Source of the DNA: Planctomycetales bacterium
GTDB taxonomy: Bacteria; Planctomycetota; Phycisphaerae; SM23-33
DNA length: 64,000 nucleotides
Reading direction: 5' to 3'
Assembly: GCA_030612725.1 (NCBI GenBank)
Contig: JAUWNJ010000009.1
Location: 40,322-104,321, forward strand
Shown here: piece by piece, positions 5,525-17,439 of the stretch
How positions within the stretch are numbered: the stretch's first letter is position 1
How the letters are laid out: each line of letters begins with the position of its first letter
The notes under the pieces: generated by a model
What the model was told of the DNA's origin: nothing
What the model saw: only the letters and a program-made list of their open reading frames with translations
Database searches by the model: none
Translations under genes and position numbers: made by a program

Positions 5525-6100
5525 TTAGCAGGGATGCAGGTGTATGAGGAATTCGGTGTTTCCGCCTTTTCCCCGTAGCGGGCTGGTCATCGTTGCCAGT
5601 ATGGCAAAGCCCATTTTTTCGAGTTCCCGGCAGGTTTGGGTGCAAATGTCCGTCGTCTGTTGAGGATCGAGCACTTCCCGACTTGGGGCTTTTTTCCCGT
5701 GGTTCGGCATCTTCGCCAGTTCGTAGTGCGGTTTGAGCAGCGAGACGATGCTGCCTCCGTCGGTCAGCCAGCGGGCGGCGGCTGGGATTATCAGTCGTTG
5801 CGGCGTGAAGGCTACATCGACGACAACCAGGTGAACCTTTTCGTCCGGCTCGTCGGCGTAGAGTGCGTTTGTCCGCTCCATCACGACGACGCGCTCGTCT
5901 TTTCGGAGTTTCCACGCCAGGCAGCCGTAGCCGGTATCGACGGCGAAGACCTTTGCTGCCCCGGCTTGGAGCAGGCAATCGGTGAACCCCCCGACGTTAG
6001 CGCCGAAGTCGGCGCATGTCAGACCGGTAACGTCGATGTCGAAGGCGATCAGAGCGGCGTGAAGTTTCTCCCCGCCACGGGATGTGAATTGGCTTTTCAA
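5525..6100 (-). CDS. TlyA/FtsJ-like rRNA methyltransferase lacking an S4 domain
   Basis: SRGGEKLHAALIAFDI...CADFGANVGGFTDCLLQAGAAKVFAVDTGYG; TTG start with an in-frame stop just upstream, so no N-terminal S4 domain. Confidence 0.8.
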   Translation of the reverse strand: MKSQFTSRGGEKLHAALIAFDIDVTGLTCADFGANVGGFTDCLLQAGAAKVFAVDTGYGCLAWKLRKDERVVVMERTNALYADEPDEKVHLVVVDVAFTPQRLIIPAAARWLTDGGSIVSLLKPHYELAKMPNHGKKAPSREVLDPQQTTDICTQTCRELEKMGFAILATMTSPLRGKGGNTEFLIHLHPC

Positions 6101-6651: not shown

Positions 6652-7878
6652 TTAGCGTTTCCGTCGTCGAATCAGGACGCCGATTCCGCCGATTCCAAGA
6701 ATAACCATCGTTGCCGGTTCGGGAATCTGGATTAACTGTCCGCCGGTTCCACCGTCGAAGACACGGCCGTCGCCCGTATAGGCGCTCGGCGTTTCGCCGT
6801 TCAGGTAGTAAAGCGTCAGGCCGCTCAGGTCGAGTGTCGAACCGGCTAATATGTCGAGGGTCTCGACGTAGAGGACCTCGGCCAGTGCGTCCTGCTGGTT
6901 GTTCGACGCATCGACCAGTGTCAGGTTGGAGCCTTTGGTGGCGGTTCCGACCGTCAGGCCTTCCAGTGCGAAGTTCTCGGTCAACCCAGCCATAACAGCG
7001 CCAAGGTCAGCGCCGCCGACTTCGCAGTTGGCCGTCTTGTCGGTGCCGTTCTCGAACACGAAGGTAATGTTGTTGAGTCCGGCCAGACCTGTCACGGAAG
7101 CGTCGGTTGTCCTGTTCTCGATGTAGGTGTTCCCGCCGGTCAGGCGGATACTGGAACCTGTAACAGCCGTAACTTTGACGTTGGCCCACGTGTCATGCTC
7201 GCCGAACTTGACGCCGCCATTGTTGAAGTAGATGTTGGCCGAGTTATCCAGAATGTTGAACTCACTCGTGTTGGTCGTACCGCTGACAGACATCTTCCAA
7301 CCATGGAACGCTCCGCCGCTAACGTTGGCGATGCCTTTGCCGCCGCCGTAGCCGATCATTACGCCTGTACCACTGTTGAAGTCGCCGCCACTGAAGTTGA
7401 GAGTGCCGGTGGCGCCGTTGTTATAGCCGATGCCTGTGCCATAACCGTAGAAATTGCCCCCGGTCATGTTCAGCGTGCCGTTACCGCCGGCATCGCGGCC
7501 AACGTAGCTCCAGGTGGCCTTGTACCAGGAGCCGGCGCCAACATTTACGACGCCCGTTCCGCCGGCGTAACCGACGTAGGCACTAGTCAGGGTATTGTAG
7601 AATCCGGCGCCGGCGCCGGCTATGGTCATCGTACCGGAACCAGTCGATGTGCCGACGTACAGAGTATTTGCCGCGCAACGGGGGGCGGCATCAGATACGC
7701 ATATCCCGCCGTTTTCGATATAGACCATGTCGGCGGTTGTCGGCGTGCCATTGGGGCTCCATGCGGTGGTTGTGTTCCAGTTACCATTGGCGACGTTCCA
7801 GTAGTAATCTGTGGCTTGGGCCTGTCCGGCCAGTGCTAACATCACCACTACTGCCAATAAAATCGTTGCATTTCTCAT
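6652..7878 (-). CDS. PEP-CTERM sorting-domain exported repeat protein
   Basis: Signal peptide MRNATILLAVVVMLALAGQAQA, repeated VGxxGGxGxxNxxGG units, C-terminal IPEPATMVILGIGGIGVLIRRRKR. Start set at 7878 behind GGAG. Confidence 0.9.
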   Translation of the reverse strand: MRNATILLAVVVMLALAGQAQATDYYWNVANGNWNTTTAWSPNGTPTTADMVYIENGGICVSDAAPRCAANTLYVGTSTGSGTMTIAGAGAGFYNTLTSAYVGYAGGTGVVNVGAGSWYKATWSYVGRDAGGNGTLNMTGGNFYGYGTGIGYNNGATGTLNFSGGDFNSGTGVMIGYGGGKGIANVSGGAFHGWKMSVSGTTNTSEFNILDNSANIYFNNGGVKFGEHDTWANVKVTAVTGSSIRLTGGNTYIENRTTDASVTGLAGLNNITFVFENGTDKTANCEVGGADLGAVMAGLTENFALEGLTVGTATKGSNLTLVDASNNQQDALAEVLYVETLDILAGSTLDLSGLTLYYLNGETPSAYTGDGRVFDGGTGGQLIQIPEPATMVILGIGGIGVLIRRRKR

Positions 7879-12098: not shown

Positions 12099-13640
12099 AT
12101 GTTGGAGCGACTTTTTAATACGCATCAGATAGCCAACCTGCTCGGTACTAATGAAGCAGCGGTTGACGATTGGATAAAAAGGGGTTGGTTGCCCGTCAGG
12201 GATATGCCCGGCGAGCAGGTCCGCATTTCCGAAAAAGGGCTGGTGCAATTCCTCAAGAACAGGGGTATCGATTTGGAAGCGATTATAACCAACGTCGCTC
12301 CCAATGATGCTCAAGAACCGTTACCCGAAACGGTTTCGCCCGAAGAACCGCTTTCGCCTCCGTCTGAAGAATCACCCCGCACGGAACGTCCCCAGGTTGC
12401 GCCTGCGCCCCAAACCGACAGGGTTCCGCCCGATGAGATCGTTGAAGAGACAGGACATATCGAATCTCATCAGGCCGATCCCGCCGCTCAGGTGGCTGAC
12501 GCCCTGCTCCGGGACGCTGCCGTAAAGCGGGTAAGCCACATTCATCTGGACTCCTGCCGGGACGAACTGTCGCTGCGTGTGCGAATCGACGGCCTACTGC
12601 ACGACAAGCCCAATTTCAAGTCGCGTCTTCCCAAAGGTCTTGGCCCACGTTTAGTGGCGCATTTAAAAAACCTTGCAGGCCTGGAGGTCGGCGAAGTCGT
12701 CGCCCCCCAAACCGGCTCTTTCCGTCTTGACATCAATGGGACGCAGGAGGATTTTCGCCTTGCGACTCATCCGACTCTGCATGGCGAAAGACTGGTGATT
12801 CACGTTCGGCTGCGCGGGCAGGACACCCCAATGCTGGATGGCATCGGTCTGGGGGAAGATGATCTCTCGTCGTTGCGGGCAATGCTGGCTGAACCGTGCG
12901 GACTTATACTGGTGGCAGGACTACCCGGAAGCGGGCCGGCGACGACGCTGCGGGCAATGCTCGCAGAAGTCGATACCGCACGACGGGATGTCGTCGCACT
13001 GGAAACGCGAAGCCAATTCCCGCTCGAAGGCATAAGCCGATACCGCATCGACCGCGAGAAAGGCGATACCGTTGCCGATACCCTGCGATCGCTTTGCAAT
13101 CAGGATGTTGATGTAATCCTGGCTGACGACATTACGGAGCGTTCTGCTGCTACCGGTGCAGTCGAAGCCGCCGTTGCCGGCCGGCTGGTGCTGGCGGGAG
13201 TATTCGCCAGAAATTCCGCCGTTGCGATGGAGATGCTTCTGGAATCCGCCAAGCCATGGACGCTGGCGTCGGCTTTGCTGACGGTAATCAATCTGCGAAC
13301 CGTACGCAAAATCTGCCCGAAGTGCAGGCAGGAAGCCAAACCCCCAGACAATCTGTCGCTGGATTTCCCCGTCTATCGCGGAGCCGGTTGCGACGAATGT
13401 TCGCAAACCGGATATGCCGGCAGGACCGGGCTGTTTTCGCTGCTTCGGGTTGACGAGATTATCGCGGCGATACTGCGAAACAACGACAATGCCGGACAAA
13501 TCATATTTGCCGCCGAACAGGCCGGTATAAAAACGCTCCACCAGGCGGGCCTGGAAAAAGTCCGCGACGGAATAACCTCGCTCGAAGAACTATCGCGGAT
13601 TCTCCCGCAATTCCCCGGAAGCGAAAGAAAGGCAAAATAA
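12099..13640 (+). CDS. GspE/PilB-like ATPase-fold protein with N-terminal MerR/excisionase-type HTH; degenerate Walker A
   Basis: N-term NTHQIANLLGTNEAAVDDWIKRGWLPV; C-term T2SS ATPase layout with CxxC...CxxC (CPKCRQ...GCDECSQTGYAGRTGLF), but P-loop reads GLPGSGPATTL. Confidence 0.8.
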   Translation: MLERLFNTHQIANLLGTNEAAVDDWIKRGWLPVRDMPGEQVRISEKGLVQFLKNRGIDLEAIITNVAPNDAQEPLPETVSPEEPLSPPSEESPRTERPQVAPAPQTDRVPPDEIVEETGHIESHQADPAAQVADALLRDAAVKRVSHIHLDSCRDELSLRVRIDGLLHDKPNFKSRLPKGLGPRLVAHLKNLAGLEVGEVVAPQTGSFRLDINGTQEDFRLATHPTLHGERLVIHVRLRGQDTPMLDGIGLGEDDLSSLRAMLAEPCGLILVAGLPGSGPATTLRAMLAEVDTARRDVVALETRSQFPLEGISRYRIDREKGDTVADTLRSLCNQDVDVILADDITERSAATGAVEAAVAGRLVLAGVFARNSAVAMEMLLESAKPWTLASALLTVINLRTVRKICPKCRQEAKPPDNLSLDFPVYRGAGCDECSQTGYAGRTGLFSLLRVDEIIAAILRNNDNAGQIIFAAEQAGIKTLHQAGLEKVRDGITSLEELSRILPQFPGSERKAK

Positions 13641-13644
13641 TAGT

Positions 13645-13691
13645 ATTATGTCCCCGGATTTTATGTCCCCGGATTTTGTCCCCGGAATTTC
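13645..13691. repeat. Family D repeat (TTATGTCCCCGGAT)n / TGTCCCCGGAATT
   Basis: Three iterations of TGTCCCCGGA; 13-bp inverted match at 15564-15576. Confidence 0.85.
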
Positions 13692-13804
13692 ATTACAACT
13701 TTGGTATGATATTTTACTTGGGCAACCCTTGTTATCCTTTGGGAATATACGATAGGATCACACATCTTTGACAGGTTCGGCTTCACAAAAGGAACATCCG
13801 GTTT

Positions 13805-14791
13805 ATGCGAGAAGACTGGAACAACATCATCTGTATTGACCACTGGGATCCGGATGAGTCCTCCTACGAGAGCGGCTTGTACCCGGAGGGCAGCCGGGAA
13901 AAAGCGGTCTACTTCTCCCCGGCCGATGTGAAACCGTTGCCGTTGAAGCCCAAGTGGCGTTACCTGTTCAAGAAATCCAGGGCTTGGGCGCCGTGGCAGT
14001 TCTGGATGGAAATCATGGCCTACCGGATTGGTCAAATTATGGGTGTTCAGGTTCCCCCTGCTTATGTTGGACTAAGCAAAAAAGAATCGCCGGGACAAGA
14101 AACCTACGGAGCGTTGATAGAATGGTTCTATTCTGAAGATGAACTATACATCGAAGGTTCGCGCCTCATATCCCCGCTCATACCAGGATTTGACCATAAG
14201 ACTGGTAAACAGCATAACTTAAGAACAATCCTGAATCATCTACTCAAAAAACCTTCTGATTCAAACAAGATTTTCCGTAAGATGCTGGAGCACTGGGCCA
14301 AGGTCTTGGCATTTGATACCATAATAGGAAATACGGATCGCCATCCGGAAAACTGGGGCATCATTATCCCACGTAAACCATCCGGCAAGACCATCCCAGT
14401 GAGACTTTCTCCCGCATTTGACAACGGGACGGCAATGTCCTATGAGCAACCCGAAGAACATTTTGCGAGATTCGACAATGAGCAATACGCTACCCGATAT
14501 TTAACCCACCCCCAAAAAGCAAGACATCACATGAGATGGAGTCTTGACGACTGCGGAAATATGAATTTCTTCGATTTTATGTGTAGATTCGTTTCGGAGT
14601 ATCCAAAAACGAAGGCGTCCATTGTACGGATGCTCCAATTTACGTACGACGACCTTCGCGATTGCCTCGAACCTTTAACGGATATTGTTATTGACGAAAG
14701 GTCTCGTTTGACAAAACCGCGGCTGGATTTTACACTAAAGCTTATTATGAGACGAACAACATTGCTCAGAGAAGCGATGGGAAAAATATGA
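13805..14791 (+). CDS. HipA-like Ser/Thr kinase-fold protein
   Basis: WQFWMEIMAYRIGQIMGVQVPPAYVG, catalytic-type DTIIGNTDRHPENWGII and metal-binding-type LSPAFDNGTAM, as in HipA C-terminal kinase domains; 4-nt overlap with next CDS. Confidence 0.8.
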   Translation: MREDWNNIICIDHWDPDESSYESGLYPEGSREKAVYFSPADVKPLPLKPKWRYLFKKSRAWAPWQFWMEIMAYRIGQIMGVQVPPAYVGLSKKESPGQETYGALIEWFYSEDELYIEGSRLISPLIPGFDHKTGKQHNLRTILNHLLKKPSDSNKIFRKMLEHWAKVLAFDTIIGNTDRHPENWGIIIPRKPSGKTIPVRLSPAFDNGTAMSYEQPEEHFARFDNEQYATRYLTHPQKARHHMRWSLDDCGNMNFFDFMCRFVSEYPKTKASIVRMLQFTYDDLRDCLEPLTDIVIDERSRLTKPRLDFTLKLIMRRTTLLREAMGKI

Positions 14792-15516
14792 AGTATATCG
14801 AACACATCATAGAACCGACAAGGCTTCTGTTGTCTTGGCAATCCCCCAGCAGTTCCAGTCGGGGACGCTATATCGTCGCAGAACTGCTTCGTAATGGGGA
14901 TGATGCCGACTTGGTATACCTGAGCGACAGTCAGGACTACATCAAGGCCAAGGAGAAGGGATTCACCGGTGAATATGGCGGATATCCGGGATTCCCTGCA
15001 ATAAACAAGGAACATTCGGGAGTCCTTGCCGCTTTCATAAAGCGACTGCCCCCTCGCTACCGGACTGATTTTGAGAAGTTCATGGACGCTATCAGGATTC
15101 GGCCAGGTACAGATATCTCGGATTTTGCACTTCTGGGATACGCTGGTGCCAGGCTGCCTGGTGATGACTTTTATATCATTCATCCCTTCGACAAGGCCCG
15201 GCCTCCATTTGAATTACTTCTTCTGGTAGCAGGATATAGGTACTATCGCGATAACGTGCCATACGAAGCATTGAAGATTGGAATGGCTGCGAAATTCGAG
15301 GCTGAGCCGAGTAATCCACATGACAAAAATGCCATCAGAATTGTAATACCGGAAGTTGCTGATCAAACCGCTGGATATGTCTGCCGTGGATTGCTACCTC
15401 AATTTCAGCGTTGGCTGGATGCGGGCTGGGATATAGAAGGAACGATTGAGCGGCGAAACGGGGTAAATGATCACCCGATCGTTTATCTTTTTGTCAAAAT
15501 CCGTAAGCCAACTTAA
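14788..15516 (+). CDS. HIRAN-domain protein with N-terminal domain of uncertain (possibly HipA-N1-like) identity
   Basis: C-terminal LLLLVAGYRYYRDNVPYEALKIGMAAKFEAEPSNPHDKNAIRIVIPEVADQTAGYVCRGLLPQF matches HIRAN (EPxNPxDxNAI, GYV). Confidence 0.8.
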   Translation: MKYIEHIIEPTRLLLSWQSPSSSSRGRYIVAELLRNGDDADLVYLSDSQDYIKAKEKGFTGEYGGYPGFPAINKEHSGVLAAFIKRLPPRYRTDFEKFMDAIRIRPGTDISDFALLGYAGARLPGDDFYIIHPFDKARPPFELLLLVAGYRYYRDNVPYEALKIGMAAKFEAEPSNPHDKNAIRIVIPEVADQTAGYVCRGLLPQFQRWLDAGWDIEGTIERRNGVNDHPIVYLFVKIRKPT

Positions 15517-15561
15517 CTGCTTCTATTGCTTGGTACTTTCATAGCTTGGTGCCGGATACCA

Positions 15562-15583
15562 GGAATTCCGGGGACACAATATG
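15562..15583. repeat. Family D repeat, right copy
   Basis: GGAATTCCGGGGACACAATATG, inverted relative to 13677-13690. Confidence 0.7.
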
Positions 15584-15641
15584 ATTGTTATTGACGTTTG
15601 TGTGCGCAAGTTGGTCATATTCCGGAATTCCCCCCTTAATC

Positions 15642-15843: not shown

Positions 15844-17439
15844 ATGAACGTAGCACTGAATAATCTGATAATGCCGGCATCGGCAGCAGCGCCTTCGGGA
15901 GAGGTTTCATCAAAGTCGAAACACTCCGCCTCAGGCCAAGCCGATAAAACCGCAAACTCCGAAGCAAAGCCTGCACAGGCCGACAAACCTGCCAAGAAGT
16001 CTGCGAATTCCAAAGACGCCCCGGACGCCACTAAAAAGAGCAAGGTTCACACCGGTCCGAAAACCTCCGACGGAAAGGCCTCCAAACTCAAAAAGGGCGA
16101 GAAGGTCGTCGTTGCAGCGGTTTCAGGTCCGAAGGTTTTTTCAGAGATTATTCAATCCGCGAAGGCGTCGGGTAATTTTCGTCAGGTCGATAGTGGCGAA
16201 TCGACGGCAGAAGTCCTTACTAAAAAGGACGCCGGGAATCCCGATATTGTGTTCGCGGGCAAGACCCATGCTGTAAAGGGCGACGCTGATTCATTACAGG
16301 TTCGGGCATCCATACTCGGCAAGACACAGGTCGCCCAAGCCACAAATAAGCCCGTCCCGGAAGGTCAGGCAGTGGCTACGTCCGAGGTTGTCGGGAAAAC
16401 CGTTGTCGGGAATCCCGTTGGCAAAGACTCCATTGGCGAAAATGCCGTTGGCGAGATGCCTCTCAATACCGAGCCGGCTGCGTTACACCGCGAGCCTATC
16501 AAGATCACCGAGGCTTTGGCCGATGCGGTTTCGCCTGATACCGGTGCGGAAATCGCGGGGAAATCGCAGATGGGGCTTGAGGCTCCGGAGGTGAATCAGC
16601 AGGTATTGACATCGCCGGCTGGGCCTGTCCTGCCGGCGTTGGTAGAGGGAATGAAGCAGGTTTCCGACGCGACACGCATACCGGCCCCTGTGGCAGGTGA
16701 AAAAAATACCCAGACCGCTTCTTCCGCTACCGGGCGGAAAGTGCTTTCAACGGCAGGGCTTACGCCAAATAAATCGGCCGAGGGTGCCGATGGAACGGAC
16801 GCGGGGATTAAAATCGACACCTTACTGCAAGGTTCTGGCGATCCCGTTGCTGCCGTTGGTCAGACGCAGACAGGGCATGGCGAAACCTCGCAGGAAGTCA
16901 TGCAGCATCTCGGTGCTACCGCCGAGCCGGTTCGCGTTGATACAGTAGATACGCCGACGGTTTCTTCGGAAAACTCGTTGCCGGCACCGGCAGCGAATCA
17001 GGTCGTCGAAGCGTTGCGAGCAAGTGCATCCCGCCAGGGTAATCAGGTCGTAATCCATCTGAATCCTCCGGAATTGGGGAAAGTCAGCATAAGACTGAGC
17101 GTTACCGGAAATGATGTTCGTGGCGTGCTGCGAGTGGAAAACCCCCAGACGCTCACTCAACTTCAGCGAGAGGCCCCCGCCCTTCTGAACCGATTGGCCG
17201 AAGCGGGCGTGCAATTGAGGCAAATGGACTTGTCGCTGAGTGAACAGGGGTCGGGCGATTCATCGCTTTACTCGCAACTGCATGACGAGAGCGGCCTGTG
17301 GGGTCAGAACAATCAGGGCGAAAATTCGCAGCCGACCGCGAGTGAATTACTTTCAGATGAGCATGTTTTGGTCGGCGTTGAAGAGACAGGGCGGGAAGTA
17401 ACCACGCTCGCAGATGACGCGATTAATGTCTGGATTTAG
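15844..17439 (+). CDS. fliK: Flagellar hook-length control protein FliK
   Basis: Long low-complexity N-term and Flg_hook C-term (VIHLNPPELGKVSIRLSVTGNDVRGVLRVENPQTLTQLQREAPALLNRLAEAGVQL). Confidence 0.9.
   Translation: MNVALNNLIMPASAAAPSGEVSSKSKHSASGQADKTANSEAKPAQADKPAKKSANSKDAPDATKKSKVHTGPKTSDGKASKLKKGEKVVVAAVSGPKVFSEIIQSAKASGNFRQVDSGESTAEVLTKKDAGNPDIVFAGKTHAVKGDADSLQVRASILGKTQVAQATNKPVPEGQAVATSEVVGKTVVGNPVGKDSIGENAVGEMPLNTEPAALHREPIKITEALADAVSPDTGAEIAGKSQMGLEAPEVNQQVLTSPAGPVLPALVEGMKQVSDATRIPAPVAGEKNTQTASSATGRKVLSTAGLTPNKSAEGADGTDAGIKIDTLLQGSGDPVAAVGQTQTGHGETSQEVMQHLGATAEPVRVDTVDTPTVSSENSLPAPAANQVVEALRASASRQGNQVVIHLNPPELGKVSIRLSVTGNDVRGVLRVENPQTLTQLQREAPALLNRLAEAGVQLRQMDLSLSEQGSGDSSLYSQLHDESGLWGQNNQGENSQPTASELLSDEHVLVGVEETGREVTTLADDAINVWI

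Follow-up and report, generated by a model that had tools for sequence, protein, structure and literature searches.

Assignment of the gene pair

The question raised by this locus is to which system a HipA-like kinase gene translationally coupled to a HIRAN-domain gene belongs, and how such a pair came to stand beside flagellar genes, outside any defence island. In the window (the whole stretch of 64,000 nucleotides that was analysed), the two reading frames and their ATGA coupling lie exactly where the first-pass annotation had placed them, the overlap covering 14788-14791 and the frames being different (Table 1). A gspE-like ATPase gene (12099-13640) precedes them and fliK (start at 15844) follows, with no other gene in between. 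No HTH or HipB-like gene is present in this interval, as that annotation had also claimed, and a search of the 3.16-Mb genome for both families found no further HipA_C or HIRAN members elsewhere.

Table 1. Coordinates of the kinase-HIRAN gene pair and of the unit that carries it (window positions).
Feature	Position	Strand	Remarks
hipI-type kinase gene	13805..14791	+	328 aa; HipA_C PF07804; PDC-M03A, E 3e-35
hipN-type partner gene	14788..15516	+	242 aa; ATGA-coupled to hipI; PDC-M03B, E 1e-23; AlphaFold pLDDT 95.5
HipS-like / HipA N-subdomain-1-like domain (putative)	14821..15189	+	HipN residues ~12-134; based on PF13657 matches of homologues
HIRAN domain	15226..15462	+	HipN residues 147-225; PF08797
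Inserted unit, approximate extent	13609..15636	.	Not present in the congeners G499 or G498; ends located to within a few bases
Three REP-like repeats (TGTCCCCGGA...)	13645..13690	+	Left inner end of insert
Inverted copy of the REP-like repeat	15564..15580	-	Right inner end of insert

The PADLOC-DB profiles PDC-M03A and PDC-M03B matched gene 1 and gene 2, respectively, and the second of these profiles recovered all 69 HipN homologues. Both parts of PDC-M03, a two-gene candidate defence system, are matched by adjacent genes in the proper order, with no difference found; the family itself is predicted, and no mechanism has been described for it. The same gene order and domain content define hipIN in Gerdes, Baerentsen & Brodersen 2021 (PMC8262856), where the module is put forward as a likely toxin-antitoxin or anti-phage system, and operons combining HIRAN and HipA are discussed as predicted phage defence in PMC11706625. 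The earlier suggestion of a candidate new split-HipA system was rejected on these PADLOC and literature matches. The literature searched contained neither an experimental study of any hipIN nor another relevant paper on hipIN, HipN or the HipI kinase.

The pair shares with hipIN the bicistronic arrangement with the kinase first, a small kinase devoid of N-subdomain 1, the absence of HipB, and a partner composed of a HipS-like N-terminus (recognised at the family level) and a HIRAN C-terminus. It fits the Proteobacteria/Cyanobacteria-type HipI subclade, sitting among Pseudomonadota rows with a Planctomycetota relative. The kinase, at 328 aa, is slightly above the 279-321 aa average range of the small kinases, and its nearest relative belongs to the Planctomycetota, which is not one of the phyla given for the subclades of HipI; no other difference was found. 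Overall, the window pair is almost certainly a hipIN module, and an intact one.

Three related systems were considered and set aside. HipL carries these three domains in an identical order, but joins kinase, HipS and HIRAN in a single polypeptide, whereas two reading frames in different frames are found here. HipBST likewise has a kinase without N1 and a HipS-type domain on a separate protein; however, its stand-alone HipS precedes the kinase, while the window partner follows it, lacks an accompanying HipB and carries a HIRAN domain besides its HipS-like part. With no HipB and a different gene order, membership in either HipBST or hipBA was rejected.

The kinase and its partner

Gene 1 passed the HipA_C cut-off narrowly (PF07804, 31.2 bits against 30.5, E 2e-7), and its core residues align to HipA, which bears out the earlier reading of a HipA-type kinase without the N-terminal subdomain: the protein is a HipA-superfamily core lacking N-subdomain 1. 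Its Gly-rich loop, G29-S30-R31-E32-K33, lies near the N terminus and aligns with the G-loop of HipA. Moreover, K56, the catalytic D178 and N183 and the metal-binding D206 line up with the catalytic residues of HipA and are invariant across 60 homologues; the core of the window kinase holds all catalytic residues and is competent by this measure. Residue 30, beside the loop glycine, is a serine here, and 27 of the 60 homologues have Ser or Thr at this position; it is a possible autophosphorylation site. The closest solved structure by profile was CtkA (3akj, E 4e-23), followed by HipT(Lp) of Legionella (8ezr, E 7e-7).

The HIRAN domain that had been read at the C-terminus of gene 2 passed its cut-off clearly (PF08797, residues 147-225, 33.3 bits against 24.7, E 4.5e-8). 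The AlphaFold model of HipN reached a mean pLDDT of 95.5 and a pTM of 0.91, and Foldseek aligned its C-terminal half to lp_0118 as well as to the HIRAN domain of HLTF with DNA (4s0n and 4xzf, probability 1.00); a profile search with HipN also matched HLTF (E 7e-7). By sequence and modelled fold, HipN has a HIRAN domain. Of the residues that contact DNA in HLTF, HipN retains R151 (the arginine of GYRYY), N176 and D179; Tyr93 of HLTF is His178 in HipN, and Phe142 has no counterpart. Since the Phe142 equivalent is missing and Tyr93 is replaced by His178, binding of DNA ends by HipN is not assured. In PMC8262856, the Phe142 equivalent is described as missing in most bacterial HIRANs.

The resemblance of the N-terminal half to HipA N1 or HipS, claimed earlier for the window protein, stood for the family but not for that protein alone. 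Pfam Couple_hipA (PF13657, the HipA N-terminal domain) matched 16 of 69 HipN homologues and, when ten homologues were tested singly, five exceeded its curated cut-off over residues 22-109, whereas in a Pfam search the window HipN itself stayed below the threshold. By single-sequence phmmer, the HipS half gave no HipA or HipS match, and neither was present among the Foldseek matches listed for HipN, where HIRAN dominates. An hhalign comparison with E. coli HipA residues 11-68 was weak, its register being consistent. The HipN family has a HipS-like or HipA-N1-like half, and the window sequence has diverged too far to match Couple_hipA. W17, Y44, R86 and R92 are invariant residues in HipN.

Co-occurrence and phylogeny

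Searches with a kinase-only alignment of five members gave 80 loci in genomes representing species and another 69 in viral, (pro)phage contigs, plasmids also carrying relatives; these 149 loci are the best-scoring, nearer relatives and not all HipA kinases. Applied to them, the HipN profile located the partner as the next gene downstream, in the same orientation, in 129 loci and within the same polypeptide in 16. The pair is therefore kept in 145 of 149 kinase loci, and the co-occurrence proposed as a check by the first-pass annotation is thereby confirmed; of the four exceptions, three are truncated by the end of their contig and the fourth is without HipN. The gaps between hipI and hipN were mostly from -40 to +31 nt, most commonly -4 (ATGA). 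The pairing of the kinase with HipN is not due to chance. In a Mycolicibacterium plasmid (L009:3998-7041), an IS110 transposase gene splits the kinase from the HIRAN gene.

In a tree of 101 kinases, the window kinase was sister to a Planctomycetota sequence (support 100/100, 49% identity), both lying within a group made up mainly of Pseudomonadota. The fused forms (HipL) made up one clade (100/95) nested within the split hipIN, which implies that the parts work as one complex. With a single-protein query, no close relative was found in viral contigs.

Insertion of the window copy

The fliK leader comes directly after the gspE-like gene, without hipIN, in both G499 and G498, two congeners. Since the pair is absent from this site in both, the window copy is an insertion of about 2.0 kb, acquired recently in this genus. 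An 8-bp AATTCCCC stands at both edges of the insert (13609-13616 and 15626-15633) and is a candidate target duplication; beyond these 8 bp at most, no long direct repeat was found around the window pair. REP-like TGTCCCCGGA repeats lie inverted just inside both ends, and the 13-mer TGTCCCCGGAATT occurs in 3.16 Mb solely at the two insert ends. The 10-base core of the repeat has 16 genomic places, compared with one for the reversed control, and two of the 16 fall on contig C6, in the space separating two of the six Y1-transposase genes that the genome has. A REP/RAYT-type involvement in the insertion is suggested by this, though not demonstrated: the window copy may have moved with its REP-like ends, helped by the resident Y1 transposases. 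Terminal inverted repeats as a general hipIN feature were rejected, the flanking inverted repeats of related loci being at chance level; the window had the single highest inverted-repeat score (14, the next being 13).

Apparent mobility of the hipIN family

In 9 of 125 scorable loci (L008, L019, L029, L036, L055, L062, L083, L125 and L138), the pair is bracketed by direct repeats of 56-114 bp when 400 bp of each flank are considered, compared with none of 1,199 control positions of the same length in the same loci. With flanks of 1,500 bp there were again nine loci, one of the nine repeats being slightly longer, against 3 of 1,099 controls, all three from one locus. The repeats are locus-specific and are copies of the adjacent target gene or of spacer sequence. 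In L008 and L125 they derive from a phage integrase gene (5' end), in L029 from leuD (3' end), in L036 from an upstream gene (3' end), and in L055 and L062 from a downstream gene (5' end), apparently the same target; the remaining loci have other sources. The names leuD and integrase were read from translations, the integrase of L008 being annotated. With shared targets counted once, about seven independent events are left.

A mapped empty site for a hipIN insertion is provided by the Pseudoalteromonas locus L029, where a 92-bp duplication from the leuD stop codon surrounds the pair (5680-5771 and 7679-7770). Five relatives match the joined empty site without a break along practically its full 900 bases, at 93-94% identity; the outer flanks run on to both sides of the duplication. 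The two repeat copies are 90% identical to each other, which points either to an old insertion or to a unit that brought its own leuD end, like an attachment site. An apparently different insertion of ~0.9 kb occupies the same leuD site in another genome (G487). For the Pararhodospirillum locus L036, no relative spans the joined site, and for the C. difficile phage the sole match to the empty site was the phage itself.

Restriction-modification (R-M) systems insert with long, variable target duplications of like order (PMC3874152; PMC3031569), a behaviour ascribed to Nobusato 2000 in the summary that PMC3874152 gives. The likeness to these units lies in the nine hipIN loci with target-derived repeats of 56-114 bp, one of them with its empty site; the cargo in hipIN, however, is a kinase pair and not R-M, and the window copy has no repeat of ~100 bp but an 8-bp repeat and inverted REP-like repeats. 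Measured against control positions within hipIN loci, hipIN pairs often seem to insert as compact mobile units. The more specific picture, in which hipIN itself is the unit of mobility, moving without its own recombinase as cassettes of ~1.8-2.0 kb that comprise the pair and its promoter region and often duplicate 56-114 bp of a gene end, thereby leaving the neighbour whole, is tentative and somewhat doubtful. The DNA-end binding of HIRAN could take part in insertion as well as in sensing.

Proposed mechanism and alternatives

The best explanation of the locus, moderately probable when the mechanism is included, is a hipIN pair, a HipI-family serine/threonine kinase with a co-translated HipN, acquired as an insertion of ~2 kb. 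HipN would bind the kinase, its HipS-like half taking the place of the missing N-subdomain 1 and keeping the enzyme off. HipS alone neutralises HipT (PMC6581861), its Trp65 being pushed into a pocket of the HipT Gly-rich loop at the active site (PMC10627512), and from this homology HipN should sit at the same place on HipI. Glu63 and Trp65 of HipS are not recognisably kept in HipN, which has LPPR; since this motif cannot be recognised, the inhibition may differ in detail. On engagement of free or single-stranded DNA ends, from phage or from damage, by the HIRAN domain, the complex would change and release the kinase, which would then phosphorylate an essential, probably translational, target, leading to growth arrest and abortive infection. 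To this sequence of hold, release and arrest, taken as a whole, we give about an even chance. The functional guess of the first-pass annotation is the current best hypothesis and independently matches the proposal in PMC8262856 that HIRAN senses DNA ends of phage or replication intermediates and activates the kinase for abortive infection.

HipN might instead be a guide, its HIRAN domain delivering the kinase to stalled forks or to the ends of DNA; there an effector complex without any toxin-antitoxin balance would phosphorylate a phage or host protein bound to DNA. The HIRAN fold in HipN is compatible with this, and in HipL, a single polypeptide, loss of the partner cannot free the kinase. 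In addition, some members have a third gene for an exonuclease (see also PMC11706625): in the P2-like Escherichia phage 899, a 3'-5' exonuclease gene lies beside a HipL annotated as hypothetical (L006:5431-7635), the kinase part of which is 35% identical to the window kinase, and this exonuclease-HipL pair occurs in 61 of 5,426 complete E. coli genomes. No conserved third gene was found at hipIN loci. A guide would not need a HipS-like half, yet the family half matches the HipT-neutralising HipS domain (PMC6581861), and we hold this role to be unlikely. The model of the fused HipL was poor (pLDDT 58.9), and the interdomain arrangement taken from it was discarded.

The pair might also be selfish, stabilising itself or its carrier by addiction with no phage defence, the HIRAN domain serving autoregulation or mobility. 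Carriage on plasmids and prophages, the many loci that look like small, self-contained insertions, with duplicated target sequence and at positions unrelated to each other, and the ~2-kb insert absent in the congeners would all fit. Mobility and defence are not exclusive, however, and R-M systems show both; the PADLOC prediction and the R-M genes near some loci speak for defence. A type I R-M operon on a Rhodococcus plasmid has hipIN placed between its S and M genes (L010:2460-7086), and the near neighbours of relatives included N6 methylases, restriction helicases, parts of DISARM and BREX, and integrases, each with a few of 134 proteins. In this descriptive survey, defence genes were a minority among the neighbours. 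Pure addiction is, in our estimate, improbable. A non-toxic housekeeping kinase for DNA-damage signalling, to which the HIRAN domains of the repair proteins HLTF and Rad5 could point, is very improbable given the recent insertion in this genus, the phage and plasmid carriage and the patchy distribution, gene 2 being matched in 2 of 393 genomes of the phylum, namely the window genome and one match confined to the HIRAN part.

Implications for the hipIN family

For the family, the reading of hipIN as a DNA-end sensor holding a growth-arresting kinase remains the proposed function, and the very confident fold model of HipN could be used as a starting point. What deserves to be followed up is how the pairs insert. 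Relative to the 2021 description of hipIN, as far as its accessible text goes, it is new that the pairs seem to enter genomes as compact cassettes, frequently duplicating a long stretch of the target. If true, this would tie the kinase-HIRAN modules to the selfish, mobile behaviour of other defence genes.
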